Part shown: one piece after another, positions 15,053 to 48,740 of the stretch
How the letters are laid out: each line of letters starts with the position of its first letter
How positions within the stretch are numbered: the first letter of the stretch is position 1
Origin: a virus
Length of the DNA: 64,000 nucleotides
Reading direction: 5' to 3' (one strand)
Virus record (IMG/VR): IMGVR_UViG_3300042922_000542
Span: 126,001 to 190,000 of that record
Program-made: the position numbers and the translations under genes
Notes under the pieces: model-generated
Database searches by the model: none
What the model saw: the letters and a program-made list of their open reading frames with translations, nothing else
Told to the model about the DNA's origin: nothing

Positions 15053-15084
15053 AAAATAGTTGGGATTTAAATCCCAACTATTTT
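15053..15084. terminator. Bidirectional hairpin terminator
   Basis: A perfect palindrome (AAAATAGTTGGGATTT and its complement) directly follows the beta gene and faces the end of the convergent minus-strand run. The T-rich flank on the plus strand fits intrinsic termination. Confidence 0.88.
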
Positions 15085-15097
15085 ATATTTTATTTGT

Positions 15098-15415: not shown

Positions 15416-15441
15416 AATAATTTCTCCTATTTATGATATTT

Positions 15442-15735: not shown

Positions 15736-15765
15736 AATCGTTCACCCCTATAATATTGTATTTTT

Positions 15766-16035: not shown

Positions 16036-16037
16036 TA

Positions 16038-16487: not shown

Positions 16488-16515
16488 TTATTATACATAC
16501 CTCCTATTTTGCATA

Positions 16516-29873: not shown

Positions 29874-30593
29874 ATGGTTACTAATCGTAAAGAAATTGAA
29901 AAGCTAATATACGACGTATTTGATGCAATTGATCCCAGTGGAAATAATACTGCAAAATATAGAGGTATGTATGAACCAATGAGTGACGCACAGTTCGAGA
30001 AGCATATGAAATCATTTCTATCAAGCGATGATGAAAACTTTATATTAGACATAGTTGAGTTTGAGCATGATCTTAATTTCAATCAATGTGAGGCTGCGGC
30101 AAAGGTTTTAAATATTCCATTAGCAGAATATGTATTTATGCCACATTTAACAATGGATAAATCTCGAGTGGTAGTATCAAAAGAAAAATGTTTAGTTGGG
30201 TGGATGAATGTAAAACGTCCACAGCAATTACTCCATAAGAAAAATGGGTTGGCAATGTCTGATGAAAAAATTTCACCTATAACAGGTCAAGTCGTTGGTG
30301 AAGATAAAGGTGCTAGAGATAGTGATATCGAGGCTGCCATGTTAGTATCACTAGGCGCTGAAAAGATATTACAAGAATTGCACGGTCCTAGAGCCGATGA
30401 TATTGTAATGAAGCGACAAATGACTCAAGATATTACTACCAAAGGATATGTTTTGTTAGATGAATTAGAAAATGATGTTACAAATAAAACATCATTACGA
30501 GCATTGGATTCGTATTTAATCAGTATGGGAGTTAAAAGCGATCTCATAACAGAAACTTATATTTTACGGAATACAGCTGAAAATGCATTCTAA
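29874..30593 (+). CDS. RNA polymerase beta C-terminal domain (domain 7) as a separate chain
   Basis: 239 residues. CLVGWMNVKRPQQLLHKKNG (~105-125) corresponds to the beta segment around GYMYxLKLxHxxxDKxHAR. GARDSDIEAAMLVSLGAEKI followed by LQELHGPRADDI (~145-176) corresponds to GxxRxGEMEVWALxAYGAAxxLxE...SDD. In cellular enzymes this is the beta C-terminal clamp that contacts beta'. The 1494-residue beta chain (10566-15050) lacks exactly this domain, so this is probably its missing end, encoded 15 kb away. GGAGG lies 13 bases before the ATG. Confidence 0.75.
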   Translation: MVTNRKEIEKLIYDVFDAIDPSGNNTAKYRGMYEPMSDAQFEKHMKSFLSSDDENFILDIVEFEHDLNFNQCEAAAKVLNIPLAEYVFMPHLTMDKSRVVVSKEKCLVGWMNVKRPQQLLHKKNGLAMSDEKISPITGQVVGEDKGARDSDIEAAMLVSLGAEKILQELHGPRADDIVMKRQMTQDITTKGYVLLDELENDVTNKTSLRALDSYLISMGVKSDLITETYILRNTAENAF

Positions 30594-30631
30594 ATAAAAA
30601 ATAATATAAATGAAAGGAAGGTACATATAAT

Positions 30632-31264
30632 ATGTTACCAATTATTTGTAAAGGAAAGGGGTTAATACCGAGAGTTGGTATGATCGCTCCAATATTAGTA
30701 CCATTTAAAGTAGATATTCAAACATTAACGATTATAATAAAAACACCTGGTTCAGTTTTAAAGCCTCATTTTGTTGATCCTGTAACAGCTAAAGAAGTAT
30801 TATTAACTAATACTAATTATAAAGATATTTATAATGAATATCAAAATAGAACTCCTGCAGCTATAGTACAGAAAGAAAAAGAGATTATTATAACGCCACC
30901 TACAGGTGGTTCAGTTACCGAAGATGATTCTGATTCAAAACCGAATATTTCATCAGAAGATGAGAATACTGTAATAAACATTATAACTAAACCTGCGGAT
31001 GATTATAATGCAGATGAGGTAATTGTAGATAATATAGCAAATACTGCAGAAAAAACTGAAATCGATAATATACATTCTGTAAATGCTGATGTGTCAATCC
31101 CAGTCATCACAAAAATTGACGATCCAACAACTTCAGTTAATGAAAATGCTGATACTAGATCAATTCCAGTTATTACGAAAGCTATTGATAATAACGGCGG
31201 CAACAATAATAGGCATAATAACAATAATAGACATAATAACAATAATAGATATAATAACAAATAA
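30632..31264 (+). CDS. Unknown protein with Asn/His-rich tail
   Basis: 210 residues. The first ~75 residues are hydrophobic and strand-like (ILVPFKVDIQTLTIIIKTPG). The rest is disordered: acidic/Asn-rich, ending in three near-identical NNNRHN-type units encoded by 18-bp repeats. AAAGGAAGG precedes the ATG. No family recognised; a structural or assembly role is possible. Confidence 0.6.
   Translation: MLPIICKGKGLIPRVGMIAPILVPFKVDIQTLTIIIKTPGSVLKPHFVDPVTAKEVLLTNTNYKDIYNEYQNRTPAAIVQKEKEIIITPPTGGSVTEDDSDSKPNISSEDENTVINIITKPADDYNADEVIVDNIANTAEKTEIDNIHSVNADVSIPVITKIDDPTTSVNENADTRSIPVITKAIDNNGGNNNRHNNNNRHNNNNRYNNK
31205..31258 (+). repeat. 18-bp tandem repeat, three copies
   Basis: AATAATAGgCATAATAAC repeated three times with one or two base changes, encoding the Asn/Arg/His-rich C-terminus of the 210-aa protein. 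Such a tract can change copy number by slippage without shifting the frame. Confidence 0.8.
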
Positions 31265-31270
31265 CATGCA

Positions 31271-31300
31271 ATATCATCGTGACTTCGGTCACGATGATAT
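31271..31300 (+). terminator. Hairpin with TTCG tetraloop
   Basis: A perfect 13-bp stem (ATATCATCGTGAC / GTCACGATGATAT) closed by TTCG, 6 bases after the stop, followed by AAATTTTAT. A stable RNA hairpin likely ends or protects the upstream transcript. Confidence 0.8.
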
Positions 31301-31370
31301 AAATTTTATAATTATATATTTTCAATATATCGTAGGGTTTAAATAATTAAAATTGAAAGGGAATAATAAA

Positions 31371-31931
31371 ATGGAATCAGATAAAGAAATAATAAATGAA
31401 AATGCAACGGATGAAGAAATAATTAATCGGTTAGTGGCCGATGCTGTGGTTTCTATGACAGAAAATATGCTTAAACAAACTTGTCAGATGCATACTGAAA
31501 ATATGGATGAATTATTTAATATTACAAATAAAATGATACTTGTGACAGTTGATACTTTAATTGATAAAATTAAAGAAATTCAGATGGATAATATGAGAAA
31601 CATGGATTTTATAAAGGCCGTATTATTCACGCAGAATTTATCAAATAATGAATGTTATGCAAACTATGTCAATGAATGGAATCGACTTAATGCAAATAAA
31701 TTCAAAAAAGTAATTGATCCTGCAGTTGATCCAACTGTATATAAAAGTATTGATGCTAAATCGCATGTATGTGATCATGAAAAATCTTATACAGCGTTAC
31801 CAATAATACCAGCAGGAATAACCCTTCAATGGAAATGTATAAAATGCGGAAAGGAAGGATTGGAGCGCGTTAATAATTCGGAGAGTGAGACTACTGATGC
31901 ATCAATTAAAACGAGAGTTGATAATAATTGA
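31371..31931 (+). CDS. Unknown protein with C-terminal zinc site, 186 aa
   Basis: Start at ATG 31371, 9 bases after GAAAGGG; a TTG at 31353 is less likely. A long helical N-terminus is followed by HVCDHEKS and, ~25 residues later, WKCIKCGKEG, a probable zinc knuckle. It lies directly upstream of the beta' C-terminal gene. No family recognised; a transcription-related role is only suggested by position. Confidence 0.62.
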   Translation: MESDKEIINENATDEEIINRLVADAVVSMTENMLKQTCQMHTENMDELFNITNKMILVTVDTLIDKIKEIQMDNMRNMDFIKAVLFTQNLSNNECYANYVNEWNRLNANKFKKVIDPAVDPTVYKSIDAKSHVCDHEKSYTALPIIPAGITLQWKCIKCGKEGLERVNNSESETTDASIKTRVDNN

Positions 31932-32012
31932 TATTACATATTTTATTTAATAACTATTTTGAGCATAACAATACAATATCAAAATTATATATGAAATGGG
32001 GCTGGTGATATT

Positions 32013-34154
32013 ATGTACGTTCTACCACATATACGAACAATACATGACTGTGAGAGGGAGTTTGGGGATGTTATAATCATTTCTCATTATAATACCTATG
32101 AAAAATTTGATGAATTATATTGGAAAGTATATTATGCAATTTGCGCATGTTATGAAATTTCAGAGTGCGTTAAATATAAAATACGTTTCAAATTTTACGA
32201 TTCCGATAGTAAGACCTATGAGCTATCTATGGTTAAATTTCTTTTAAATATAAACGCATGGAGACCACTAATTGAATTATATCAATTGCAAAAATATTAT
32301 CATTATAAATTAGAAGTATTGGATGAAAGCTTCATCATTAACAGAATGATGAGTGATACATTAAGAATAGGATTGGAATCTAAAGTATTGAAGACATTAG
32401 ATGATTATGGTATCTCATTTGAAAGATCATCTGATCTAATAAAGACTGTTATCGAAAGATATCAAGAGATATCGATCGAGTTTTCGTTGTTAGCTCCAGC
32501 CGGAATATTTACTCTTGAGAATTGTTTCCTAAACGATTATATGAATAATGAAAAGATTCGAGAGTTAAATAATACTGTAATATCACAAAATATTCAAACT
32601 GCCGATGTTGAGGAATTATTAAAAGAGAAGTATAATGAGCTTGTCGTAGAGTTAGGTAAAACTAAGAACCCGATATGGTATGTTAGTAAAGCAGGTAATC
32701 ACATCAAAGCTAAACAGGTACAAGAATTATTTATTTCGTACGGTCAGGTTCCGAATGTTGATGGTAATGTAATTCCTTATACGATGGAAGGTAATGGATT
32801 CAGTACTGGGTTTAATAGCCCATCTGCATATTATGTTGCCGCAACTGGTGCTAGATTATCGGCTATCATGAATAAAACTAAAATGGGTGAAGCGGGTTAT
32901 CTATCTCGTAATTTAATTTTATTGAGTAGAACAATGCATCTCTCTACAACTACATTTGATTGTGGTACTAAACACATGCTTGAATTATTTGTATCAAGTT
33001 CAACTATGTTGAGGAGATTGGAGAATCGTTGGTTTTGTGAATATTTGGGGGATCCATTACAATGCATTCATTATGAAACCCATAAACATTTAATTGGTAA
33101 GAAAATTTATGTGAGGTCTTTGTTAACATGTGCAGGTGGTGATGAGGTATGTCATGTATGTTACGGACGAGATAGTCACCTTGTTGCAAATATGCCAGGT
33201 ATGGCAATATTTAATACGGAAGTTTATTCAGAACCAGTATCGCAAAATATATTATCCACTAAACATTTATTGTTTACAGCCGCCAATAAATTGACATTCA
33301 GCGATTCGTTTGATAAATATTTTAAATTTAATGCAGGGGATATTTATTTGAAGGATCAAGATGAATGGAATAATGAGTTACCATTTGAATATTTAAGCAT
33401 AAGAATTGAAGAAAGCAATGTGCTATCCGTTAATGAACAGGATATAATTGAATATAGTACATTCGGTAATAATATAGAATCCCCATTCTTTATATATAAT
33501 AAAAAGACCGGCGAATATGATAAAATAGAAATAATAAATGCTGAATCCATGTTTATAGATGCGACATCTATGAAATTATTCAAAACAGTTATTGATAAGA
33601 AGCATGCGAATAGTAAGTTTTATGAACTTCCGCTACATACAATAGCTACTGAATTAGAGGGTCGTTTAATGTCAGTTGATATTAAAAATAATGGATTAAC
33701 CGATAACCTCTATATGATAATGGACTTATTAAATAAAAATGCATCTAAATATGATGATTATAATCAACTTGCACAATACTTCTTTGAAATGTTAATTAAT
33801 GTTGGAATCCGTTGCAGAAATATTCAAGCAGAAATTATATTAAATCGATTGATACGCGATAATAATGATATATATGCTAGACCTGATTTTTCTAAATTCA
33901 AAGCGCCTGAATATAAAATATTGACATTGAATCAAGCATTGATAAATACCAAAGCACCTACAATAGGTTTATCATATCAAGAAATCAAACGTCAATTACT
34001 CAGCGATGATCTTTATGCCAGTAAGAATGGAGCATCATATTTAGATCCTATGTATGCGACATCAATCAGTACTGATCGTTTAAAAGAAATACATAATAAG
34101 TTAAGAAATAAATTAAAGGAGAAAAAGGAAAATGAGCAATCAGAACATAAATAA
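32013..34154 (+). CDS. RNA polymerase beta' chain, C-terminal half (trigger loop, second zinc site)
   Basis: 713 residues. ATGARLSAIMNKTKMGEAGY (~276-295), followed by LSRNL, matches the trigger-loop region THGARKGLxDTALKTAdSGYLTRRL. DCGT (~316) and CAGGDEVCHVCYGRD (~373-387) keep the four cysteines of the beta' zinc-binding domain. The SEPVSQNILSTKHL segment (~407) stands for the usual IGEPGTQLTMRTFH. The N-terminal ~250 residues are divergent. It needs a separate N-terminal half, probably the gene cut by the window's left edge. GGTGAT precedes the ATG; the end overlaps the next gene by 23 bases. Confidence 0.88.
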   Translation: MYVLPHIRTIHDCEREFGDVIIISHYNTYEKFDELYWKVYYAICACYEISECVKYKIRFKFYDSDSKTYELSMVKFLLNINAWRPLIELYQLQKYYHYKLEVLDESFIINRMMSDTLRIGLESKVLKTLDDYGISFERSSDLIKTVIERYQEISIEFSLLAPAGIFTLENCFLNDYMNNEKIRELNNTVISQNIQTADVEELLKEKYNELVVELGKTKNPIWYVSKAGNHIKAKQVQELFISYGQVPNVDGNVIPYTMEGNGFSTGFNSPSAYYVAATGARLSAIMNKTKMGEAGYLSRNLILLSRTMHLSTTTFDCGTKHMLELFVSSSTMLRRLENRWFCEYLGDPLQCIHYETHKHLIGKKIYVRSLLTCAGGDEVCHVCYGRDSHLVANMPGMAIFNTEVYSEPVSQNILSTKHLLFTAANKLTFSDSFDKYFKFNAGDIYLKDQDEWNNELPFEYLSIRIEESNVLSVNEQDIIEYSTFGNNIESPFFIYNKKTGEYDKIEIINAESMFIDATSMKLFKTVIDKKHANSKFYELPLHTIATELEGRLMSVDIKNNGLTDNLYMIMDLLNKNASKYDDYNQLAQYFFEMLINVGIRCRNIQAEIILNRLIRDNNDIYARPDFSKFKAPEYKILTLNQALINTKAPTIGLSYQEIKRQLLSDDLYASKNGASYLDPMYATSISTDRLKEIHNKLRNKLKEKKENEQSEHK

Positions 34155-34617
34155 TTCAAATATATCAATATTGAATCAACATGCTTTTGAAGAGGCTGCA
34201 GTAGAAATTAAGCAATTGCAAGATAAGATCGATGACAAATTAAAGGAAAAATGCCCAGATGAATTAGAATCTCATGAGAATTTATTATTTAAAGAAATCA
34301 GCTCTACTATAATTAAAATACTCACAGACACTTCTACTCAAGAGGCATTCAGAGAGTTGCAGAATAAAATAGGAACTGATATTTCGAAGGAATTAGTTGA
34401 ACTGATCTCAACTGTAACAACATTTGCAACATATAATGCAATTGCATTTTATGATATGACTGTTAAAGAACAAATTTCAGAAAATTTTACAGAGTGGGGA
34501 AAAACTATTATGAAACATGATAGTGATATAAATGTCATGGCTGCTAAAATTGGAGATATCGAAAAGAAATCAATTGTTTCTAAATTGCAAAATATTGTTG
34601 ATAATGATGTAATATAG
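34132..34617 (+). CDS. Unknown helical protein, 161 aa
   Basis: Starts inside the end of the beta' gene, with GGAGAAAAAGG before the ATG, so its translation is coupled to that of beta'. Predominantly helical, with a likely coiled-coil N-terminus. No family recognised; coupling suggests it could be an accessory or assembly factor of the polymerase, but this is only inferred. Confidence 0.65.
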   Translation: MSNQNINNSNISILNQHAFEEAAVEIKQLQDKIDDKLKEKCPDELESHENLLFKEISSTIIKILTDTSTQEAFRELQNKIGTDISKELVELISTVTTFATYNAIAFYDMTVKEQISENFTEWGKTIMKHDSDINVMAAKIGDIEKKSIVSKLQNIVDNDVI

Positions 34618-34648
34618 ATACATATTATACAAAAGCAATTAGTTTAAA

Positions 34649-34697
34649 TATGAGAGGGGATGGGCGGCCATCCTCCTTCATATTCTTATTTTTTTAT
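34649..34697 (+). terminator. Intrinsic terminator
   Basis: A 15-bp stem with one mismatch and wobble pairs (TATGAGAGGGGATGG / CCATCCTCCTTCATA), GCGG loop, followed by TTCTTATTTTTTTA. It ends the beta'-containing transcript and leaves the polyphosphate kinase gene to start a new one. Confidence 0.82.
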
Positions 34698-34753
34698 TTA
34701 TATATTATAATTATATAATAATTGAATAACAAAATAAAGTGAGGGTTTATGAT

Positions 34754-36571
34754 ATGTCAAAAATATCTGCAATTAAAAGTCTTATTATGTTTAATCAAAG
34801 AGTCTTATCACTAGGCGAAGTAATAGATGGTAAAACATATACAATGAATGAATTAAAAAAGACATTATCATTCAATCAAATATTCATTAATAATATGAAT
34901 GAAATTTTCAAAAATCAGAAGAAGTTCACTGAGTGCATTGATGAGTATAATGCCGACCTAAAGAAAGTTCATTTAAATTTATATAACATTATTAACAAAA
35001 TAATGGAGATTGATAAATCGATCATGATAGAGTTGGATGACAGATATCAGTTCGAATGTAGATTTGCAATATTGGATTTTATTAAGAATGGACTGATGAT
35101 TGATGTTATTAATAAAACTGAATTAGAAACATACCATTTTGATGAAGGTTTAATCTATTATATAATATCCGCGGGCAGTAGTTATATCATTTATCATATG
35201 GATTCTAAATGCAAATTATATCAATGCTTAATATCATATAAATTTAATGATTATATTAGATATTGGAAAACTGATGCAGCGATGTTATCATATCTTAAAA
35301 ATAATCACAAAGATGATAGTAATGATATATATGGAATTGTAATGAAAGTTACGAAATCATCAGACAGCCATGATCTGGTTAAGGTCGACATGTATGGAGA
35401 AACCGATGATATGCAGTCAATATATAATGATATGGTGACACATTCAAATTGGCATGATAAGTTCATTATAAAAAATCAATTCATGTATATGAGTGATATT
35501 GAACAAATCATTACATCGTCTAAGCTATATCAAAATATACCCGCCCATACTAATGTATTTGCATCAGATAATGATAAAGAATCGTTCTTACTATCAGATA
35601 TATTTGATAAAGATATATTAGTTGAATACCCTAATGATTCATTTGATTCATATTTACGATTATTACATCTTGCATCAATCGATAATAGGGTTGAATCGAT
35701 ATCCGTAACATTATATAGAATAGGTAATAATCCTATTATATATTATATTCTTAGAGACGCTGTAAGGAGAGGTGTTCAAGTGCATGTAAATTTAGAACTT
35801 AGAGCATCTGAAGAAAAGATTAATAAATTCTGGGCAAGTGAGATGAAGGCAGTTGGTATAGATGTGGCGCATTATGCGGATGGATATTTAAAGGTCCATT
35901 GCAAATTGACATTAATAAAATTCAAAGATAATAAAATGATAGCCCAGATCGGTACGGGTAATTATCATTCTCAAACCACATCGCAATATACAGATTTTTC
36001 ACTCATGACTACAGATAAAAAAATGACGTCACAAATATCAGATCTATTTGATGTTATATTTAATAGAGCGACAAAAGTTAAATTTAATAAAGACTTATTG
36101 GTCACTCAATATAATATGAGGGATACTCTTAAAGAGCTAATATTGAATCAAACAAATCTAGGTCCTAAAGGGTTAATTCAAATTAAATGCAATGCTCTTG
36201 ATGACGACGAAATGATAAAATATTTGGATTCAGCTGCATTAGCTGGATGTAAGATGCAATTAATAATAAGAGGTGTATGCACATGGATTCCACCTGAAAA
36301 TACACTTAATAAAAATGTGACAATCAAATCTATAGTATGGGATAAATTGGAACATTCCAGGGTATACTGTTTTGGAAATATTAACCCTAATGTATATTTA
36401 GGATCGCTAGACTTAATAACACGAAAATTAGATAATCGAATCGAAACATTGGTTCGAATAACTAATAAACATACACTAGTTGAGTTATGCAATTATATGA
36501 CTAGATATAATAATTTTAGCGGGGCTTGGAGTATGATTTATGATGGTGGAAATATTAAATATGTAAAATAA
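34754..36571 (+). CDS. ppk1: Polyphosphate kinase 1 (PPK1) homologue
   Basis: 605 residues (bacterial PPK1 is ~690). The N-terminus shows the PPK1 opening pattern (MFNQRVLSLGE, then NQIFINNMNEIFK). The catalytic half is clear: VTLYRIGNNPII, LKVHCKL (the autophosphorylated His of the HAK motif), IGTGNYHSQTTSQYTDFS, RGVCTW, LEHSRVYCFGN (second active-site His) and YLGSLDLITRKLDNRIE. The ELQAR(F)DEE segment is altered to ELRASEE, replacing its Arg by Ser and dropping two residues. PPK1 makes polyphosphate from ATP and runs in reverse to make ATP. Start at ATG 34754, 8 bases after GAGGG; a GTG at 34739 lies at the ribosome site. Role in infection unknown. Confidence 0.9.
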   Translation: MSKISAIKSLIMFNQRVLSLGEVIDGKTYTMNELKKTLSFNQIFINNMNEIFKNQKKFTECIDEYNADLKKVHLNLYNIINKIMEIDKSIMIELDDRYQFECRFAILDFIKNGLMIDVINKTELETYHFDEGLIYYIISAGSSYIIYHMDSKCKLYQCLISYKFNDYIRYWKTDAAMLSYLKNNHKDDSNDIYGIVMKVTKSSDSHDLVKVDMYGETDDMQSIYNDMVTHSNWHDKFIIKNQFMYMSDIEQIITSSKLYQNIPAHTNVFASDNDKESFLLSDIFDKDILVEYPNDSFDSYLRLLHLASIDNRVESISVTLYRIGNNPIIYYILRDAVRRGVQVHVNLELRASEEKINKFWASEMKAVGIDVAHYADGYLKVHCKLTLIKFKDNKMIAQIGTGNYHSQTTSQYTDFSLMTTDKKMTSQISDLFDVIFNRATKVKFNKDLLVTQYNMRDTLKELILNQTNLGPKGLIQIKCNALDDDEMIKYLDSAALAGCKMQLIIRGVCTWIPPENTLNKNVTIKSIVWDKLEHSRVYCFGNINPNVYLGSLDLITRKLDNRIETLVRITNKHTLVELCNYMTRYNNFSGAWSMIYDGGNIKYVK

Positions 36572-36587
36572 CTGAGAGGTGACGTTA

Positions 36588-37304
36588 ATGTATACTCCTA
36601 ATATGAGTATTTGGTTAAATCCTAATTTAGAATATCTATTCAATACAGAGATAATCGAATATGATATGAAGGAAGCAGGATTTAGCTTAATAAAGCAATT
36701 TCATTTATTATCTGACGATGAAATTCATAAATTAAATATGATTGAAAAGTCTGAAAGGACGATAGCTATTGGCAAACTGCAACGTGATAAGATTTTATCA
36801 AGTTCTGCATTATCTGATAAATTCACAGAAATGCGAGCTGCATTTATCGAAGCTAATAAAATAACAGATAATGATATTATATCTGTTAAAAAAGATGCTA
36901 TATTTACTATAGGTAAATGTAAAAGGCAGAAATTTGGCGGTATTGAATTTGTAGAAAAGCATAATTATTCATCATATATTAGATTTGTGAATAATTCTAA
37001 TATTGAAATATTTTATAATGATGGGGATGGTTTAGAAATAAAAGGTATTGGTGATATAGGAATTAATAGACACAGATTGTACTTAATCCCATTCCTTGAA
37101 AAAATAATTAAATATATTGAGTTAAAGAATCCATCGGTAAAACGACAGATTAGAACATTTATAGATGATTATAAGGCTATGAAATTGGATGAGGGGTACT
37201 ATATTGAATTCAATAATAAGAGTGCATCAGTAGATCCGATGTACAATTATCAGAAATTATTAATACCCCTAGTTCAATTAGTTGTGGAGGAACTTAACAA
37301 ATGA
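36588..37304 (+). CDS. Conserved unknown protein, 238 aa
   Basis: Start at ATG 36588 after GAGAGGTGA; a GTG at 36579 overlaps the site. MSIWLNPNLEYLFNTEIIEYD, split here as MSIWLNPNLEY and FNTEIIEYDMKEAGF, and the basic GKLQRDK motif resemble an unnamed family seen in large Bacillota phages, possibly polymerase- or exonuclease-related, but I cannot name it. Ends overlapping the next gene by 4 bases (ATGA). Sits just after PPK1. Confidence 0.65.
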   Translation: MYTPNMSIWLNPNLEYLFNTEIIEYDMKEAGFSLIKQFHLLSDDEIHKLNMIEKSERTIAIGKLQRDKILSSSALSDKFTEMRAAFIEANKITDNDIISVKKDAIFTIGKCKRQKFGGIEFVEKHNYSSYIRFVNNSNIEIFYNDGDGLEIKGIGDIGINRHRLYLIPFLEKIIKYIELKNPSVKRQIRTFIDDYKAMKLDEGYYIEFNNKSASVDPMYNYQKLLIPLVQLVVEELNK

Positions 37305-37948
37305 AATATGATGATGCAGAAGATCAAGTATATTATCTTGTATATAAAACATCCGATGATCGACATGGTGGAATCGAGGATCTATATGGATGGTCACATA
37401 GTAAATCAGTTGTAAATGCATTTCTGAAGCAACGGAATCCAAAAAAATATGTTATTGATAAAATGGTAATAACTGCAGACAAAAGTGGGGCATATAGTAA
37501 GAGAGGTTTAGTTGACACAAGATATCTAGATTTGAGTGATCCAATTATGTTAAATATACTCCCATTAAAATCATGCAACACTGGTGAAACCGTTAAATTA
37601 TTTACAACAAGTGATGAACAAATTAGGATAGTTAGCGACATCGATTCAATGTTTGATCAACTTAGATCATTTGACAGAGTCGAAGATACATCCATAGCTC
37701 ATCTCGTTAATATATATAAATCAATTAAACCAAAATATATTAATGCACTTGAATGGATTGGATATAACCCCACAGAGATATCATATTTATATGACACAGT
37801 GGATGATATATATAATGAAATAAACTTTGGTCAAGATTATATCGATGAATCTGATGATGAAATCGATAAAGGTGGATTGAATTTAATTAAGGCGATGTTT
37901 TATTCACTAGAGTCTGTAATTAAAGTTTTGAAGGATGAGTTGATTTAG
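37301..37948 (+). CDS. Unknown protein, 215 aa (paralogue of next gene)
   Basis: Starts in an ATGA overlap with the previous gene. VYYLVYKTSDDRHGG and LYGWSHSKSVV near the start, and IKPKYINALEWIGYN further on, match corresponding stretches of the 174-aa product at 37964, so the two arose by duplication. The C-terminal ~50 residues are acidic. Function unknown. Confidence 0.68.
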   Translation: MKYDDAEDQVYYLVYKTSDDRHGGIEDLYGWSHSKSVVNAFLKQRNPKKYVIDKMVITADKSGAYSKRGLVDTRYLDLSDPIMLNILPLKSCNTGETVKLFTTSDEQIRIVSDIDSMFDQLRSFDRVEDTSIAHLVNIYKSIKPKYINALEWIGYNPTEISYLYDTVDDIYNEINFGQDYIDESDDEIDKGGLNLIKAMFYSLESVIKVLKDELI

Positions 37949-37963
37949 GAGGATCAGGTAACT

Positions 37964-38488
37964 ATGAAGAATTATGAAAGAGAAGATAATGTCACATTCT
38001 ATTTCGTTTTGTCTAAACGTGCATCAGGCGGTAATGATATTAAAGCTTGGAGTGATGATAAATGCTGCGTAGAGTTTTATGTGAAATTTCACAATTGCCC
38101 AAATCATCATATACGCAAAGTTAGTAAAAAGATGAGAGATATATCATCAATACTAAATGAGAATCATAATGACGAGATTGAAATTATGAATATTATAACC
38201 AGGGATAAAAATAATCGACCTAAAATTATACAGATTCCAATGACTACAACAGAACGAAGTGTAGTTGATGATGCATCTAAAACATTCTGTTCTGCAATGG
38301 TTGATTATTCGGCATTAAATGATCATGTGGGTATATTAAAACCAAAATATCAAAAATCTTTAGAAAGAATTGGAATGATGGATATCATTCGTTCGACGAT
38401 ATATAATAAGTCTACAAAATTTATATCTGAAATTGAAATCGACCAACTGCGCCTACTAGCACGATTATTCAAAGGTGATTTCAATTAA
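37964..38488 (+). CDS. Unknown protein, 174 aa (paralogue of previous gene)
   Basis: TAGGAGGATC before the ATG. VTFYFVLSKRASGGN, IKAWSDDKCCV and LKPKYQKSLERIGMM align with the previous gene product in the same order. It is shorter and lacks the acidic tail. Probably a tandem duplication, diverged. No named family. Confidence 0.68.
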   Translation: MKNYEREDNVTFYFVLSKRASGGNDIKAWSDDKCCVEFYVKFHNCPNHHIRKVSKKMRDISSILNENHNDEIEIMNIITRDKNNRPKIIQIPMTTTERSVVDDASKTFCSAMVDYSALNDHVGILKPKYQKSLERIGMMDIIRSTIYNKSTKFISEIEIDQLRLLARLFKGDFN

Positions 38489-38544
38489 GATTATATATTA
38501 TTGATATATAGTAATATGGAACAAAATATTATCGAGAGGAGATT

Positions 38545-39405
38545 GTGAATACATACATGCAGAAAGTATTAAGATCAACAATATGTGAATTATTTCCGTT
38601 TGATCTTCGTGTGGAGTTGGAATTATTATCAAAACGAAGAGATATATCTAATAAAGAAAAACAAACGGAATTATTTAACTTATTTAGAAAATATGATATA
38701 GAGGCAGTTCCTCTTGGACCCGGAACTAATCGTTATGCATTTAAATTGAATTCATATGCGATCAAGTTTGCAACCAATAATGACGGTAAGATAGATAATC
38801 TTAAAGAGTTTAAAATGGCTAAAAGATTATATCCCAACGTTATTAAAGTATATGAAGTAAGTATGAATGGAACAATTCTAGTTACAGAGTATATACAACC
38901 ATTTGAAAGTTTTTCAGAGATGTTGTCTCATGAGAAAGAAATCAAAAAAATATTAAGCGACATGTCATCAGTATATATGTTTGGTGATGTAGGGGTAATA
39001 GAAAAGAATTATGCCAATTGGGGTATTAGAATTGGAACGACCGAGCCAGTCTGTTTAGATTTTGCATATGTATATGATGTTAGCAGTGATATATTTATAT
39101 GCCATGCTTGTCATAATGATGCAATGTTATCATTAACATCTGACTTCGCTTCATTAAAATGTCCCAGTTGTGGTAAAGTTTATAAGTTCGAAGAGATTCG
39201 AAGAAGAATCGGTAATGATATACACAATCATGAAATCGGTGATTTAACAACAGAAGGATACGTATTAGAGACATCTAATGTGCCAGTAACATTAGATGAG
39301 AATCGAAGTCCGTATTTAAAGAAGAAAGCATCTAAAATTAAAAATAATGAAATAAAAGTAGTTATAACAGAAGAGCCAATCGACACCTTTATTATGCCAT
39401 CATAA
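38545..39405 (+). CDS. Protein-kinase-like protein with zinc ribbon
   Basis: About 286 residues. The N-terminal domain shows a kinase-like layout: GPGTNRYAFKL as a nucleotide loop, YAIKFA with the ATP-binding Lys, ILVTEYIQPF as hinge, GDVG...NYANWGI in the position of the catalytic loop, and CLDFAYVYD in place of DFG. The HRD motif is lost (GDV), so activity is uncertain. A CHAC...CPSC zinc ribbon follows (~187-211), then a basic tail. Start taken as GTG 38545 behind GAGAGG; ATG 38557 is the alternative. It could phosphorylate, or bind, host or phage proteins. Confidence 0.62.
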   Translation: MNTYMQKVLRSTICELFPFDLRVELELLSKRRDISNKEKQTELFNLFRKYDIEAVPLGPGTNRYAFKLNSYAIKFATNNDGKIDNLKEFKMAKRLYPNVIKVYEVSMNGTILVTEYIQPFESFSEMLSHEKEIKKILSDMSSVYMFGDVGVIEKNYANWGIRIGTTEPVCLDFAYVYDVSSDIFICHACHNDAMLSLTSDFASLKCPSCGKVYKFEEIRRRIGNDIHNHEIGDLTTEGYVLETSNVPVTLDENRSPYLKKKASKIKNNEIKVVITEEPIDTFIMPS

Positions 39406-39448
39406 AATTATTTAATATATTAAATCAAAATCTTAGGAGGATTTATCC

Positions 39449-41410
39449 ATGGTAAACATTATTAGAAATCAAGGTACAGTGAAAGTTATTCAGCAGAATA
39501 ACAATACCCAACATGAAGACAATTTCGTATTACAGACACCTATTAAAGAAACTTTAGCTGTGCCTGTTACAAAATTTGTATTTGAGGGTGACATTGATAG
39601 TTCAATCGAATCGCAATCATATAATAATATTTCACAAAAATCAAATACTAACATCAATGCAAATGATAGATATGATGATTTCGTTTTAGCTAAACCTGGT
39701 AATGAACAATTAGTAGATGGGGTTACTAAGAAAACTATGAATTCCCAAGAACCTCATAAAATCAATAGATTTGATAATCCTGAAAGTATACCATCCATTG
39801 TAGATGTGACTAGATCGATATCAAAGATAGCTAACATGATTAGGGAATCATTAAAACGAAATGACGTTTATGGTAAAATAACTTATGACAAAATGAAAGA
39901 ATCTGAATTTTACTATAAATTGAGCAATCCTATCTGGAAAAGTTTATTGCAAATATGCAATATTGAACAACTACCAGGTGAGAATCAATTTAATATCCCA
40001 AAGGTAGATATGAATACACCTTATCTAGAAACTTGGAGATTTTTCGATAGGATGTATCATGATACAAGGGTTAGTTTCGACAAAGATCCTATTATAGCAA
40101 TCACTAATTATAAGAATATATTCCAGGTTAATGGCGGAATCACTAGTAAATTAATACCAGTACTATTTTCGAAAATAGGGGAAAAATTAAATGGTATATC
40201 ACCATCAGATCTAAATATTATAGTGAATAACATTGGTGGTGTATGGTGTTATCGTGACCCATCTTATATCGAATCCATTGGAGTCGACAGTCCAATGCCA
40301 CCACGCATGACACTGTTTGATCCATTTGCACATAATGATACTGATGAAGAATTCTCTATCGGTAATGAAGTGCAGGTGCATATTCCAATAGCACAGATGG
40401 ATAAAGTGAATAAAAATAATAATATATATCAAACTGATGATAATGATGATTACGAAGATGATTGCGATGATGAATCTGATTATGATGAGGATTGTGATGA
40501 TTATGACGACTGCTGCGATGAATATGAAGATGAGGATCATGATGATGAGGTATTAACTATCGATATACAGAATGATACAGATGTTAATGAAGCCATTATT
40601 TCTATATCAGCATGGAATGGTACTACAACGGCATTATATGAAGTATTAGAAGTTAAACCAGAAACTGAAGAATCATTAGATTGGTCTTGGTTACGTCATT
40701 TTATACCAAATGCTGTAATTGTTACAGAAGAACCAGATGCATATTTAGAATACAATGAAATGTTGGATTGTATTAGATTTGCACAGTTGGCAAAATCTAA
40801 AGATGTAACTGAAGAGCCGAATGATAGTGCTACGATAATAGGTTTATACTATATTGATGAAGAAGTTGAAAATATGGAAGATAACTTATTGCACACTATT
40901 GGTAATATCGTTGAGCAAAATATGTCGGTTGCACCAAATTTAAGCCATCTAGTAAGAACCCTTCAGATGGATAGATTAATAGTTGATGAAATATCACTTT
41001 TAAAATGCATTGGTCAAATTGATGATGATGATAATGGAAATTATGCTAATCCAGATGCCGATGAATGTGAAGACGAAGATGAAGAATATGAATCAACATT
41101 AGCATTTGCAGCTTCATTAATATCGGGCAATAATGACATGGAAGCACCAACGCCTACAGAAATTATTGAAGAAGATGATTATGAGGATGATAATCAAGAA
41201 GTGATGGAAGAACCAGATGCAGAAGCCGAGGTAAATGAAGAGATATATGAGGTATATGAAGAAGAGGAAGAAATAGTAGAGTCAGATACTTCTGATAATT
41301 GTGAAAATACAATCGGCGATTACATCCGTAATAAATATGGTGATGCGGATGGTCTAGTATTACAACCAATCGTAAAAGGTCGAAATAGTAAATATCAAGA
41401 CGTTGAGTAA
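39449..41410 (+). CDS. Unknown protein with long acidic stretches, 653 aa
   Basis: TAGGAGGAT before the ATG. A folded-looking centre (residues ~110-290, with TWRFFDRMYHDTRVSF) is followed by an Asp/Glu-rich segment (~330-365, repeated DD/DE), another mixed region, and a second acidic stretch (~525-620). Such acidic tracts occur in scaffold, DNA-mimic or chaperone-like proteins. No family recognised. Terminator follows. Confidence 0.65.
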   Translation: MVNIIRNQGTVKVIQQNNNTQHEDNFVLQTPIKETLAVPVTKFVFEGDIDSSIESQSYNNISQKSNTNINANDRYDDFVLAKPGNEQLVDGVTKKTMNSQEPHKINRFDNPESIPSIVDVTRSISKIANMIRESLKRNDVYGKITYDKMKESEFYYKLSNPIWKSLLQICNIEQLPGENQFNIPKVDMNTPYLETWRFFDRMYHDTRVSFDKDPIIAITNYKNIFQVNGGITSKLIPVLFSKIGEKLNGISPSDLNIIVNNIGGVWCYRDPSYIESIGVDSPMPPRMTLFDPFAHNDTDEEFSIGNEVQVHIPIAQMDKVNKNNNIYQTDDNDDYEDDCDDESDYDEDCDDYDDCCDEYEDEDHDDEVLTIDIQNDTDVNEAIISISAWNGTTTALYEVLEVKPETEESLDWSWLRHFIPNAVIVTEEPDAYLEYNEMLDCIRFAQLAKSKDVTEEPNDSATIIGLYYIDEEVENMEDNLLHTIGNIVEQNMSVAPNLSHLVRTLQMDRLIVDEISLLKCIGQIDDDDNGNYANPDADECEDEDEEYESTLAFAASLISGNNDMEAPTPTEIIEEDDYEDDNQEVMEEPDAEAEVNEEIYEVYEEEEEIVESDTSDNCENTIGDYIRNKYGDADGLVLQPIVKGRNSKYQDVE

Positions 41411-41421
41411 AAACATTAATG

Positions 41422-41467
41422 TACACAGGGTTCTATTACCAGAACCCTGTGTAAATTATTATTTTTT
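41422..41467 (+). terminator. Intrinsic terminator
   Basis: A perfect 13-bp stem (TACACAGGGTTCT / AGAACCCTGTGTA) with 6-base loop, followed by AATTATTATTTTTTG. It separates the acidic-protein gene from the next one and decides the start of that gene. Confidence 0.9.
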
Positions 41468-41489
41468 GAAAGGGGAAGTGACATTATAT

Positions 41490-42152
41490 ATGTTATTTAG
41501 GATTAACCATGAAAACTTTATATATCATATGATTGATTATTTTACTAGAGAAGAAATAACAAATTTATCATATATGATAATAAGTGCTTCCATTCGTAAT
41601 CAAGGTACACAGCCAAACATTGTTAAATGTAATGATTTATATCCTTCTAGTGATGATGCAATATCGAATTATATTCAACTTGAGGATAAAAAATTATTTC
41701 ATAAAACATATTATAGGGAATTAAAGCAGACTGAAAATATAATATATCAGGCAATTATTGATCCTATATTGAAGCATCGACATAATATTGTATTAATATG
41801 TGCTGAGCGTGAAGATATGTATATTGACGTCCTATGCGACTTTTTAAAACAAGAATTCGCTTTAAAGACCGTCGATCTAAATAAATTATTCGATGAGGGT
41901 GAAACTGATATATTTGTTATAGATAAAACCGAAGTTAACAACAAATCCATAGAAATAAAACGTAATGCAGTGCGTGAAAGTATCAGAAGTAGAGAACAAA
42001 CCCCAGATGGTCGTGCACATTTATTGTCATTAATGGCAAAAGAAGATAAATTGAAGAAATTAAAATCACTCGGCATTAAAGTGGATAAATCAATGAAAGA
42101 TTCAGAATTAACTGAATTATTGAAAGATGAGTGGGTGGCATCTGGGGAATAG
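41490..42152 (+). CDS. Unknown protein with C-terminal SAP/HeH-like motif, 220 aa
   Basis: The open frame extends back to 41403, but that part covers a terminator hairpin; the ATG at 41490 follows AAAGGGGAAGTG and is the likely start. The last ~30 residues (LKKLKSLGIKVDKSMKDSE, then LTELL) match the helix-extended-helix/SAP motif, often used for DNA binding or as a virion-protein tail. The remainder is unrecognised. Confidence 0.65.
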   Translation: MLFRINHENFIYHMIDYFTREEITNLSYMIISASIRNQGTQPNIVKCNDLYPSSDDAISNYIQLEDKKLFHKTYYRELKQTENIIYQAIIDPILKHRHNIVLICAEREDMYIDVLCDFLKQEFALKTVDLNKLFDEGETDIFVIDKTEVNNKSIEIKRNAVRESIRSREQTPDGRAHLLSLMAKEDKLKKLKSLGIKVDKSMKDSELTELLKDEWVASGE

Positions 42153-42181
42153 ATAATATTCCTCGGATCCATCTTTTTTTT
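42134..42181 (+). terminator. Terminator overlapping the gene's 3' end
   Basis: An imperfect stem around GGGGAATA / TATTCCTC, extended by ATC / GAT pairs, followed by TTTTTTTT at 42174-42181. Its left arm lies in the last codons of the preceding gene. Confidence 0.75.
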
Positions 42182-42268
42182 GTATTTATTACCTGAAACA
42201 GAAGCATAATGAATATGTAAACATAACACTAAAAAATATTTTTTATAAAGATAAGGAGAGATAATCAT

Positions 42269-44125
42269 ATGATTACTGTAAATTCTAAAACAAATAAAAA
42301 CCCGTCATCAGGTGATGAAAATTTTAATGAATTTAAATTACCAGAAGCAATGCAAGTTAAAAATGATGGGCTTGAAAAAATGGATAAACATGCAGAGCAA
42401 ATTCAAAAGGATATTAAACCTGTGGGGGATTGGGCGGATTTATTGAATACAACAACCGACAGCGTTACCAATGCAATAAATTCTGCTACAACTGATCGTC
42501 GTTCAATTATAGCCAGAGCTAAAAATTCAATAATACAATTTCCAATATACATAGTTGACAATGTTAATATTAGTGCAGCTCATATAGTCGCTAAAGCATT
42601 TGAACGTGTATATGCTTCATTTGTACAAACGGTATTATCACAGTATCCGGTAGTAGACGAAAATTCTATAAATGACTTAGCATTTTTAAAACAATTCCAT
42701 ACAAATATAAGAGAATCTGCAAATTCATTATTCAATGAATATTATCAACCAATTGATGATTTTGATGAAATTATGCAGGAAAGTATATCTAATACAGTAT
42801 TATGCGAAGATGGTATTATGGCAAATTTCAATGTCGCTCCATGCACCAATAGTTATCTTATTGCCGAAAATGCAAGACTACTAAATGAGCCATTACAGGG
42901 ATTTGAAAATTACTTCATCGAAGCTAAAATGAATGATGCTGCTAACCTTAAGAAACTAGATTCTGATAGACAGGATGTTAGATCGACACATGATCCACAG
43001 GGTGATATAATAGCGGGTATGAACGAGCAAGATGTTCTTGCATTATTCGATCAGAAGGAACCCGTAGAACCGAAGGAACCTACAAAAAATACACTTCCTC
43101 CAGAACCCAAATTTTTTATTAGAGATGGTGAAGAGAAGTCAGAGGCTCAAATTAGACATGCTAAAGATCTTGCTGAATATAATGCAATTGTTGATGAAAA
43201 AATGGGTGAATATGAAGATGCGGTTATTGCCTATAAAGATGCATTAGAAAAGTATGGTGCTGATAAGGAAATATTCCTTCAAAGTATAAAAGATGGCGTA
43301 AAGGTTGTATATAATAAAGATGGTGCACCAGTATTATATAATAAGGAAAAAGATCAATTCTATGTTATTAAACCTGGCGTACACAAAATCACTACATCTT
43401 CACGACAAGTATCTGCTGAATTTAAAGCACCTGCTATGTTAAGAGACTCAGATATTAAAAAGATAAATGGTATGTTGCCATATACATTTGATGCTAGTTT
43501 TACAATAAAGAGTAAAACTACTCCTATCAACAATATAGTGCATTATATAATTGGAGTGAAGTCTGTTCTTCATCTAATTAAGGCGAATGATCTTAGTGAA
43601 GAACTTCAAGGTCTAGTTACCGGGGATATCAAGAATTTACAAAAGGTTCGTTATAAAACTGGCGAAATTGCATTCTGGAAAGATTACATATTCAGAAAAG
43701 GTGAACTTAAGAGAGATGCATCTAAACAATTAGATAGCGGCAAGAGATGGATAAATACTCTTAAACAATTATCGCAATATAATAAAGAATATGGTAGCTT
43801 ACTAGATAAACCTGCCTCTCTATTGGCCGGTGGAGATATTCCAATTCCTAATGCCACATTAATTTTAACACAACCTGTTGTACAAAAAATGAAAAATGAA
43901 ACTGGTATTAATTTGGAAGATGTTGCTATGGCTAAAAAATTAGCAAAAAATTTATTCTTGATATCGATTGTAATTCTTGACTCATCTGCAGGTAATATGA
44001 AAGTACTATTTACTGATACAAATAATGCCTGGGACATTCAATCGTTAGCATCTATAGAAACAGAAATTGCTAAGACTGATAATAGCAATTTGATAAAAGA
44101 GCTCAATCAGATTATAAATAAATAA
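42269..44125 (+). CDS. Putative head/internal virion protein, 618 aa
   Basis: AAGGAGAG before the ATG. Helical, with a proline/glutamate-rich linker in the middle (residues ~255-275, KEPVEPKEPTKN). It is the first of a co-directional group with the prohead protease (42.3-46.7 kb) and contains KLPEAM (~27) and NYFIEAKM (~215), which resemble T4-type protease cleavage sites. This suggests a scaffold or internal protein matured during head assembly. No family match by eye. Confidence 0.55.
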   Translation: MITVNSKTNKNPSSGDENFNEFKLPEAMQVKNDGLEKMDKHAEQIQKDIKPVGDWADLLNTTTDSVTNAINSATTDRRSIIARAKNSIIQFPIYIVDNVNISAAHIVAKAFERVYASFVQTVLSQYPVVDENSINDLAFLKQFHTNIRESANSLFNEYYQPIDDFDEIMQESISNTVLCEDGIMANFNVAPCTNSYLIAENARLLNEPLQGFENYFIEAKMNDAANLKKLDSDRQDVRSTHDPQGDIIAGMNEQDVLALFDQKEPVEPKEPTKNTLPPEPKFFIRDGEEKSEAQIRHAKDLAEYNAIVDEKMGEYEDAVIAYKDALEKYGADKEIFLQSIKDGVKVVYNKDGAPVLYNKEKDQFYVIKPGVHKITTSSRQVSAEFKAPAMLRDSDIKKINGMLPYTFDASFTIKSKTTPINNIVHYIIGVKSVLHLIKANDLSEELQGLVTGDIKNLQKVRYKTGEIAFWKDYIFRKGELKRDASKQLDSGKRWINTLKQLSQYNKEYGSLLDKPASLLAGGDIPIPNATLILTQPVVQKMKNETGINLEDVAMAKKLAKNLFLISIVILDSSAGNMKVLFTDTNNAWDIQSLASIETEIAKTDNSNLIKELNQIINK

Positions 44126-44149
44126 AAAATTCATGCTAGGAGAATTATT

Positions 44150-45202
44150 ATGAATAACGAATATAAAATATCAAATGATTTTTATGAAATCATTTCTGGT
44201 ACCAATAATAAAACATTACCAGTATATACTGAAGCTGTTAATGCAACAGAATCTGATGATAAAAAATCTTTATTATTCATCAAAAAATTTTTAAGATCAA
44301 TTGGTAGGGTTGCACCTGATGGAAGAATAAAAAATACAGATATATCTAAAAGTAAAGGAAATATTAAAACATTCAATAAATATAAAGAGCTGGATGAATC
44401 GTTCAAATTACTTGAAAAATATATTCCAAAAAATGCCGAATTTAAATCATTAAAAAATATAAAGGCTAAATTAGAAGAAAATGCAGAATACTATATAGAA
44501 TCATATAGAAGAAATATAGATATTCTAATTATGGAATATGAAGCATCAATGTATTTATTGACTGAAGGTTTAGGATTTGTCATCGTAACATATATTACCG
44601 TAGAAAATACTAAGCTCGGTTTGACAATAAAACCTAATGCATCTGCAGCAATGAACAGAGGTATTATATTTAAATTGATTACCGATTTAGATAAAGAATT
44701 ATCCAGTGCAAATCATACTAACTATATCAAAGAATTTATTAATATGGATAAAACCGGTGTAGTTAAAGAGGCTGCAGGTGATGCTACAGTAGCAACAATT
44801 GAATTGATCACAACAATCTTCAATCAAAGTGCAAACATATTTAAACGAGGGAAATATGCAATTAAAGTATTCATTAAATCTATTTTTGGTATACTTCCTC
44901 TTATAAGATCTATTATATATTTACATTACAAACGCAAGGCGGATCAGATTAACTCATTAGAAGTAAATGCTCAGTTTATACAATTGAATATTGAAATGCT
45001 TAAAAATAGGACCAATATAGATCCTAATAAGAAAGCAGAAATAATTAAGAAACAGGAAGCTAAAGTATCAGCATATTTAAAGAGAGCTGAAAAATTGAGA
45101 GCTGAACTTGTTGACACGGAAAAAGACACTGCTGCATCACTGGAGGATGATAATAAAATTATGTCTAAACCTTCGAATGATGATGATTTCATTTTAGATT
45201 AA
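44150..45202 (+). CDS. Putative head-associated protein with membrane-like segment, 350 aa
   Basis: TAGGAGAATT before the ATG. VYTEAV near residue 27 resembles a prohead-protease site; helical body, one hydrophobic stretch near 245-258 (FIKSIFGILPLIRSIIYL), and a coiled-coil C-terminus (~275-335). Between the 618-aa protein and the protease, it is probably an internal or scaffold component. No named family. Confidence 0.55.
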   Translation: MNNEYKISNDFYEIISGTNNKTLPVYTEAVNATESDDKKSLLFIKKFLRSIGRVAPDGRIKNTDISKSKGNIKTFNKYKELDESFKLLEKYIPKNAEFKSLKNIKAKLEENAEYYIESYRRNIDILIMEYEASMYLLTEGLGFVIVTYITVENTKLGLTIKPNASAAMNRGIIFKLITDLDKELSSANHTNYIKEFINMDKTGVVKEAAGDATVATIELITTIFNQSANIFKRGKYAIKVFIKSIFGILPLIRSIIYLHYKRKADQINSLEVNAQFIQLNIEMLKNRTNIDPNKKAEIIKKQEAKVSAYLKRAEKLRAELVDTEKDTAASLEDDNKIMSKPSNDDDFILD

Positions 45203-45221
45203 AAGAAAGGAAGTAGATTAT

Positions 45222-46085
45222 ATGACAGGAAATTTATCAACTCTTTGTTATATAAGCGAGCAAACATCTTTCGCTGAAGATTACAAAGATTTTGGATATA
45301 AAGTACATGATCGTGGCAACCGATTCTTTTTAACATTCGATGCTACATTACAATCATTCGGTATAAAAAATCGTAATAAGAGAGTATATGAATCGGCTAA
45401 TATTTTAAATAGGATTGAACAAGATGATTTTATACAATCTATGCTAAAACAGCAATCATGGATAGGCGAGATCGATCATCCAGGATCAACAATTGAAGGA
45501 CAAGATTTAACTCAGAACCGTATTGGAAATCCTGATCCAAAAATGTCTTCTCATTTTATCAGAAAACCTTGGCTAGTCGGAAATTTATTGAAAGCTCCGA
45601 TTCAAACGGATTCTTCAAATGAGCATGGAATGAATATGGCAATCAAGATTGTCGATGGAAAGATAGTGCCAGCATTTAGTGCAAGGGTATTTGGTGAATT
45701 AATTAATAAATTGGGTGTTCCTACTGTTATCGTTAAAAGATTAATAACATATGATTGGGTAATGTACCCATCTCACCCAGAAGCACTCGCAGATATTAAA
45801 CCTGGTATATTAACTGAATCTACCAATATGATTGAGGGTGCTATGAATGGAACGATAATATTCATAAAAGAATTGGCGAAAATGGCCGCAAACAATTCTA
45901 AAGAAACTGAATGGTTGTGCGAATCATTCGGATTGACGATTGATAATATCATTGGTATTAATGATACTGGCGATTCTATTATTATTCAAGAAAATAAGAA
46001 TATATACGCCCAGCCGATATCTGATAAATTCATACGTGAAAAGACCAAAAATCAATTATCTGACTTTTTAGGAAGGAGAGTTTAA
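45222..46085 (+). CDS. Prohead maturation protease (T4 gp21 / S80-like)
   Basis: 287 residues. The order KNRNKRVYESANIL, then GEIDHPGS (catalytic His in the E-[LI]-D-H-P motif), then PAFSARVFGEL (candidate Ser) matches phage prohead core proteases of the herpesvirus-type serine protease fold. These enzymes cleave scaffold and head proteins during capsid maturation. AAAGGAAG precedes the ATG. The neighbours upstream (618 and 350 aa) carry possible substrate sites. Confidence 0.82.
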   Translation: MTGNLSTLCYISEQTSFAEDYKDFGYKVHDRGNRFFLTFDATLQSFGIKNRNKRVYESANILNRIEQDDFIQSMLKQQSWIGEIDHPGSTIEGQDLTQNRIGNPDPKMSSHFIRKPWLVGNLLKAPIQTDSSNEHGMNMAIKIVDGKIVPAFSARVFGELINKLGVPTVIVKRLITYDWVMYPSHPEALADIKPGILTESTNMIEGAMNGTIIFIKELAKMAANNSKETEWLCESFGLTIDNIIGINDTGDSIIIQENKNIYAQPISDKFIREKTKNQLSDFLGRRV

Positions 46086-46087
46086 AC

Positions 46088-46651
46088 ATGATTATAGATA
46101 AAGCCCTTCAGACATTTAAGGAAACATATGATAGAGAAGCTATTGAATCAATAGTTCAATTATCTGAGGATAGATCTTTGTATAAATCGTCATTCAAAGG
46201 ATTTAATATTCAAGAAGCTGTTAATAAATTTATAACATATTTAAATGGATATGCTGAATATCGTATTGAAAATGTTGATAAAACGGAAGTCATGGATAAT
46301 AATACCATTACGGAACATACAAAATCTTTCATTAAGAATAAATCAAATGATAATATTTTATTTGAAGAAGCAGTGATCCCATTTAATGATTCAACAAAAT
46401 TTATTCAAGAGTATTTTGAATGTATTGGACTATTAATTGAATCTGTTAATAAAAATCAGACGATTCTGATGGAATCAATAGATGATTCTGAAAGCAGTGG
46501 CTGCATATTAAAATTCACAGAAATGTTCTTGGAAGACGTTAATGAACGAATTCATCCAATAATGGAATACTTACTTCAAAGCAGTGGATATTATTCTAGA
46601 AAACGTTTACGTGCACCATCCGTAAAAAAGGAACAAAATTTTTTCTTATAA
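46088..46651 (+). CDS. Unknown protein, 187 aa, after the prohead protease
   Basis: Begins 3 bases after the protease stop, with GGAAGGAGAG before the ATG. Helical and acidic until a basic C-terminus (YSRKRLRAPSVKKEQ). A head-assembly role fits its place, but the sequence is not recognised. A terminator follows. Confidence 0.62.
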   Translation: MIIDKALQTFKETYDREAIESIVQLSEDRSLYKSSFKGFNIQEAVNKFITYLNGYAEYRIENVDKTEVMDNNTITEHTKSFIKNKSNDNILFEEAVIPFNDSTKFIQEYFECIGLLIESVNKNQTILMESIDDSESSGCILKFTEMFLEDVNERIHPIMEYLLQSSGYYSRKRLRAPSVKKEQNFFL

Positions 46652-46658
46652 AAGATAA

Positions 46659-46694
46659 AATAATAGGATGGGGCTTTAACCCCATCCTATTATT
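46659..46694 (+). terminator. Intrinsic terminator
   Basis: A perfect 15-bp stem (AATAATAGGATGGGG / CCCCATCCTATTATT) just after the 187-aa gene. The following ~170 bases (46695-46866) hold no gene; they are AT-rich and include CATAATGAATA at 46744, so they probably carry the tail-fibre promoter. Confidence 0.88.
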
Positions 46695-46872
46695 TATTAA
46701 AACAACTATACTCGTTTCAAATGATTATTGATGGAACCAAATTCATAATGAATATTATTCACATAATGATAGATTGATATTTTTTAGTAATGACAATAAT
46801 ATATTTATATCATACTTATCAATTGTAAGTTACATTGTTCTAAATAAAAATAAATATGGGAGTTGAATGCAT

Positions 46873-48711: not shown

Positions 48712-48740
48712 TTACAAAATAATATGAAAGGAATGATAAT

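Follow-up and report, generated by a model that had tools for sequence, protein, structure and literature searches.

The window analysed here is a stretch of 64,000 nucleotides (positions 126,001 to 190,000) of IMG/VR virus record IMGVR_UViG_3300042922_000542, a virus of 246,147 bases with a multisubunit RNA polymerase (RNAP), a DNA polymerase and virion genes. It carries ppk, a gene for a homologue of polyphosphate kinase 1 (PPK1), in the following setting:

32013 to 34154, plus strand: RNA polymerase beta'-like subunit, C-terminal part, a marker of the AR9-like jumbo phage core
34132 to 34617, plus strand: gene for 161 aa, bounding the ppk site on the left in relatives whether or not they carry ppk
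34647 to 34684, plus strand: terminator-like hairpin followed by a T-rich run (z = -5.6)
34699 to 34715, plus strand: AR9-type early (virion RNAP) promoter-like element, TATATATTAT-N6-A, with a predicted +1 at 34715
34741 to 34745, plus strand: ribosome-binding site of ppk, GAGGG, read directly, 8 nt before the ATG at 34754
34754 to 36571, plus strand: ppk1-like gene, 605 aa (open reading frame; Pfam, NCBIfam, PDB, AlphaFold2)
36579 to 37304, plus strand: second operon gene, phrog_21037, conserved in AR9-like jumbo phages, its start probably the ATG at 36588

An alternative in-frame GTG start of ppk at 34739 is less likely than the ATG at 34754, because the alignment of the relatives begins at the ATG. 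The protein consists of an N-terminal part (about residues 1-89), a diverged head (about 90-279) and the catalytic domains C1 (280-440) and C2 (441-598). A preliminary description of this DNA had placed a PPK1 homologue at 34754-36571 and quoted seven of its motifs, both active-site histidines included; the reading frame is exact, all seven motifs are present, and Pfam, PDB and structure matches agree. C1 and C2 are matched far over the Pfam cutoffs (PF17941 PP_kinase_C_1, 1.2e-38; PF13090 PP_kinase_C, 1.2e-32). The profile search proposed at that stage succeeded only in part, as the N-terminal and middle (head) domains (PF13089/PF02503) gave no Pfam match in the window protein. The NCBIfam PPK1 models match it with scores under their cutoffs, the poly_P_kin equivalog TIGR03705 reaching 254 bits against a cutoff of 466. 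Its top PDB match by phmmer is E. coli PPK (5e-44), than which it is 83 aa shorter, close to the 85 residues first estimated, and on sequence comparison its N-terminal half appears both shortened and diverged. A profile built from the phage clade described below matched the PDB PPK1s at 1e-61, with significance only across C1-C2. Neither the window protein nor one canonical jumbo-phage PPK1 had a significant family in PHROGs v4.

The predicted structure leads to the same family. An AlphaFold2 model built with 33 related sequences reached a pLDDT of 85.7 and a pTM of 0.84, and PPK1 structures ranked first in Foldseek (ATP-bound PPK1 9uuh, 4e-41, TM 0.82; E. coli 1xdo, TM 0.83); this full-length match was obtained with an input alignment that contained bacterial rows. 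A model from 11 rows had misplaced the domains relative to PPK1 (TM 0.5), and the 33 rows corrected the placement. Identity as a phospholipase-D-like (PLD-like) nuclease or lipase without the PPK histidines was considered and rejected: PPK1 profiles score about 75-95 bits above PLD profiles, and the E-values of PLD structures are worse than those of PPK1 structures by over 20 orders of magnitude.

The RNAP subunits of the phage find their best matches in AR9, PBS1 and Staphylococcus jumbo phages, phiR1-37 also being among its nearest relatives, and its genes identify the carrier as an AR9/PBS1-like jumbo phage. Positions 30000-50000 had no nucleotide-level match in the phage collection, and searches of the phage for tRNA genes, exopolyphosphatase (PPX) and PPK2 yielded none. 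Two neighbouring proteins may be mentioned in passing. The product of 30632-31264 has a C-terminal low-complexity tail of asparagine, arginine and histidine (NNNRHNNNNRH). That of 38545-39405 (286 aa), behind its own TATATATTAT early-promoter element at 38492, resembles by eye a degenerate protein-kinase fold in its N-terminal half and a CxxC...CxxC zinc ribbon in its C-terminal half; its family matches were limited to weak zinc-ribbon ones.

A single-sequence search of viral contigs with the window protein gave no matches. Alignment-based searches were required, and these yielded seven distinct syntenic relatives (L008, L009 = L010, L011 = L012, L013, L014, L024 = L046 and L045) on contigs of up to 292 kb. 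Over their length the relatives are 38-43% identical to the window protein, and L024 reaches about 51% over the catalytic half; in a further relative, L137, ppk is cut by the contig end. In every complete case the gene order is RNAP beta', the 161-aa gene, ppk and the phrog_21037 gene, the 161-aa gene of the L045 phage not being recognisable by BLAST. Bacterial contamination or a chimeric contig might be suspected, since several PPK1 matches in phage collections are bacterial contigs. Two human faecal 'Bacteriophage sp.' entries (L004 and L006; MT836612.1 and MT835510.1), with ppk beside phosphofructokinase, ClpB and metabolic genes, look from their gene content like plain bacterial DNA, and PPK1 counts in phage collections are therefore inflated. 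For the window this explanation is ruled out, its probability being negligible: viral contigs that come independently from other metagenomes have this gene in the same position, with phage RNAP and virion genes flanking it, which bears out the phage origin assumed at the outset.

Some related phages lack the gene. In L128, the terminator and early promoter run directly into the phrog_21037 gene, which constitutes a clean empty site, and in L132 (289 kb) the same neighbours are joined, with a hairpin present and the exact promoter core absent. No ppk was found anywhere in L025 (289 kb) or AR9, nor did PBS1, phiR1-37 or the Staphylococcus jumbo phages yield a match to it. From the fixed gene order and the existence of related phages without it, ppk can therefore be regarded as an accessory cassette that occupies one fixed place in this group of jumbo phages. 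The RNAP tree is poorly resolved and is compatible with loss of ppk in the sister phages or with gain in the others. In the sister jumbo phage L025, several apparent radical SAM-type genes, one of them supported by PHROGs, lie downstream of the same RNAP gene (12698-16659).

In a tree of C1-C2 from 50 sequences, the eight clade members form one group with 100/100 support; no bacterial member of it was found, and its stem measures 1.86 changes per site. The best bacterial matches, almost all from Bacillota and many from gut isolates or gut MAGs, fall outside it; the phylogeny suggested in the preliminary description thus gave a phage-only clade distinct from the Bacillota enzymes. Further PPK1s are present in other large viral contigs of up to 275 kb (L021, L022, L016-L020 and L015) and were apparently acquired separately. 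Those of L015, L016 and the Vibrio phages GR7B and GR11A cluster elsewhere in the tree, with one bacterial sequence among them, whereas L021 and L022 sit on long branches and are unplaced. One common origin of all jumbo-phage PPKs, which was considered as well, is unsupported by the tree, with L021 and L022 unplaced. The middle domain is recognised by Pfam in L016, L021 and GR7B but not in the window clade. In the L022 enzyme, too, most of the head domain is missing, and its gene lies among baseplate and RNAP genes.

Within the clade, identity is 59% in C2, 55% in C1, 44% in the N-terminal part and 35% in the head, a pattern much like that of bacterial PPK1. The closest pair differs mostly at third codon positions (NG86 dN 0.23; dS about 1.7, near saturation). 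The sequences make ppk look like a gene under purifying selection rather than a relic. In L024 (8873-10282), a single open frame encodes a clade member of 470 aa without nearly the whole head domain (about residues 90-281 of the window protein), possibly a minimal PPK1.

The preliminary description had also noted a flanking terminator and proposed that ppk might be separately controlled. The upstream hairpin is real, and the other clade members have hairpins of differing sequence at the same place. Directly after it, in all eight, comes TATATATTAT-N6-purine, 35-62 nt ahead of the start codon; in shuffled sequences the core was found in 0.1-4% of cases per sequence. The mapped early promoters of the AR9 virion RNAP have the form AAATATATATTAT-N6-G (PMC5312081). 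In the clade, the flanking three bases differ from AAA in most members and most elements begin TTTATATATTAT rather than AAATATATATTAT, and the AR9 virion RNAP has been reported to be intolerant of some departures from its consensus. Across the 246-kb record TATATATTAT occurs 43 times, with 35 occurrences in intergenic sequence of a genome that is 92% coding and 8% non-coding, and it precedes the DNA polymerase, NAD ligase, SMC-like and helicase genes; the matches in the window include those at 7698, 10045, 25442, 27314, 34699 and 38492. Since the fuller promoter pattern was not enriched over shuffles in the window alone, the promoter is argued from its location, its conservation and the preference of the core for intergenic sequence across the genome. 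The 43 elements may be viewed as the putative early regulon of an uncultured AR9-like phage. There is no terminator between ppk and the next gene, and ppk therefore appears to head an operon, not to form the isolated unit that separate control had implied; by its promoter-like element it is probably transcribed early in infection.

The active-site positions that matter most for the interpretation are the following:

35807 to 35809, plus strand: Ser352 codon TCT at the E. coli Arg405 position, beside the Phe406 deletion (by alignment)
35897 to 35899, plus strand: His382, equivalent to the autophosphorylated E. coli His435, invariant in the clade
36353 to 36355, plus strand: His534, equivalent to E. 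coli His592, invariant in the clade

The segment ELQARFDEE reads ELRASEE in the window protein, so that the loss of an active-site arginine noticed in the first reading is real: E. coli Arg405 is replaced by Ser352 and Phe406 is lost. The active-site arginines 375, 564, 594 and 621 are all retained and 405 alone is changed; because of this substitution among conserved arginines, the protein is classed on its sequence as a variant PPK1 homologue and not a standard PPK1. Position 405 carries Ser or Thr in seven of the eight clade members and Arg in L045, and all eight lack Phe406. Of the 83 bacterial PPK1s examined, 82 have Arg at position 405 and one has Lys, and the six other phage PPK1s retain Arg. 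The Asn617 position is Lys throughout the clade (8/8) and Asn in every bacterial sequence (83/83). In a common alignment, the equivalents of E. coli Asn45, Glu48, Arg375, His435, Lys437, Asn459, Tyr468, Arg564, His592, Arg594, Ser610, Arg621 and Glu623 are kept in all eight members. The Asp407 position is altered in the clade too, and Arg53 has no aligned equivalent; together with the change at Asn617, these differences could reduce polyphosphate (polyP) synthesis as well.

In M. tuberculosis PPK1, Ala mutants of Tyr524, Ser668 and Glu681 affect both activities and His491 is essential, while R431A, R461A, N515A, R624A and R654A disrupt only NTP synthesis from polyP, and a change at His510 is reported as mild (PMC3215733). 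These positions were transferred to E. coli numbering through the anchors His491 = His435 and His652 = His592 (PMC6416319) and near-constant offsets, not through the M. tuberculosis sequence, and R461 thereby corresponds to Arg405. Nine of the 11 characterised positions (ten mutated, plus His652) are invariant in all eight clade members, the four needed for polyP synthesis (His491, Tyr524, Ser668 and Glu681) among them; a tenth, His510, is Gln in the clade. The sole tested position that would be harmfully changed is Arg461 (= Arg405), needed there for NTP synthesis alone, a comparison made by analogy, as the phage change is Ser/Thr with a one-residue deletion and not a plain Ala.

The reading that we favour, evenly poised between right and wrong, is an early, synthesis-biased phage PPK1 that makes polyP and does not regenerate ATP in a dying cell. 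The latter role had been offered in the preliminary description and is disfavoured both by the M. tuberculosis R461A phenotype (PMC3215733) and by the early-type promoter upstream. The injected virion RNAP would transcribe ppk early in infection; the enzyme would bind Mg-ATP, the gamma phosphate would pass to His382 with the aid of His534, and His382 would hand it to the growing polyP chain. Because the Arg405 equivalent is gone, we infer that the reverse reaction would be impaired in its use of ADP and that the enzyme would run mainly forward, from ATP to polyP. Two clade members sit awkwardly with this model, L045 by retaining the arginine and L024 by having no head domain at all. The stricter proposal of a natural synthesis-only ('one-way') PPK1, an early jumbo-phage cassette lacking a residue needed for ATP regeneration, is put forward tentatively and with some doubt. 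If true, infection would commit host ATP to polyP, and nature would have separated two PPK1 activities previously split solely by site-directed mutation.

It seems unlikely, though worth serious thought, that the product is an ordinary reversible PPK1, an auxiliary metabolic enzyme that stores and remobilises phosphate and ATP and in which the arginine change is compensated. All remaining catalytic residues are kept, other jumbo phages have canonical PPK1s, and the clade-wide Lys at the Asn617 position could compensate; L045, however, has both this Lys and the Arg, so that Lys is no simple replacement, even if the Arg of L045 in itself suits a reversible enzyme. The R461A mutant, in which NTP synthesis from polyP is disrupted (PMC3215733), and the recurrence of Ser/Thr in seven of eight members that otherwise differ strongly argue for the synthesis-biased enzyme. 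Quite improbable in our judgement is a repurposed PPK1 in which the same histidine chemistry serves another acceptor, such as NDPs/dNDPs or guanosine polyphosphate. M. tuberculosis PPK1 is a reported auxiliary NDP kinase acting on NDPs and dNDPs with polyP (PMC3215733), an activity that could be useful to the phage since some AR9-like relatives have uracil-containing DNA, and the long stem and the head domain, diverged and in L024 absent, fit such a shift; NDP kinase activity is, however, the reverse direction that loss of Arg405 should weaken, and the clade otherwise keeps the residues in contact with the sugar and phosphates of ATP. In E. coli PPK1, the beginning of the N-terminal region serves dimerisation. 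Its partial retention, with one catalytic-site arginine gone, would suit a non-catalytic, dominant-negative protein that would poison the host PPK1 dimer by pairing with it, yet a dead decoy needs none of the catalytic positions that stay invariant (His382, His534 and seven more) across members only about 40-45% identical to the window protein, and this reading is more improbable still.

Under the favoured synthesis-biased reading, the candidate benefits are buffering of phosphate or Mg, altered host proteolysis or stress signalling, and the drawing of ATP from the host. In bacteria, polyP ties together phosphate storage, ATP level, proteolysis and stress tolerance. Many gut Bacillota, which are the likely hosts as we infer them, carry their own PPK1, as seen in the best bacterial matches, and for this reason our first choice is a takeover of the polyP-dependent stress physiology of the host, outside host control. 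No study that establishes a role of polyP in phage infection was found in the literature consulted. A clade that keeps the polyP-making residues, changes one residue needed for ATP regeneration and has an early-type promoter allows a direct test of what a phage gains from polyP, and a forward-only phage PPK1 would supply enzymology with a natural one-direction enzyme.

Compared with E. coli Ppk (1xdo/1xdp) and 9uuh, the window protein shares C1/C2, both histidines, the equivalents of Arg375, Tyr468, Arg564, Arg594, Arg621 and Glu623, and the predicted fold; it differs from the E. coli enzyme in its unrecognisable N-terminal and middle Pfam domains, Arg405 to Ser, the deletion of Phe406, the unaligned Arg53 and Asn617 to Lys. 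With M. tuberculosis PPK1 it shares all synthesis-required residues, whereas Arg461 of that enzyme is replaced in the phage clade (PMC3215733). With the AR9/PBS1-like phages, the window phage has RNAP subunits, the early promoter core and phrog_21037 homologues in common. The Vibrio jumbo phages vB_VcorM_GR7B and GR11A likewise have an annotated PPK1, but theirs keep Arg405, that of GR7B being a canonical four-domain enzyme, and appear to stem from a separate acquisition because they are placed elsewhere in the tree. A ppk1 has also been described among the auxiliary metabolic genes of viruses in reservoir sediments, with no mention, in the part of that report available, of the window clade, an altered active site or a promoter (PMC13188868). 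The initial view of ppk1 as an unusual phage gene therefore has to be narrowed: phage ppk1 as such had already been reported, and what seems new, as far as the literature and databases consulted show, is the phage-only clade with the change at Arg405, the early-operon cassette that carries the gene and the natural empty sites.
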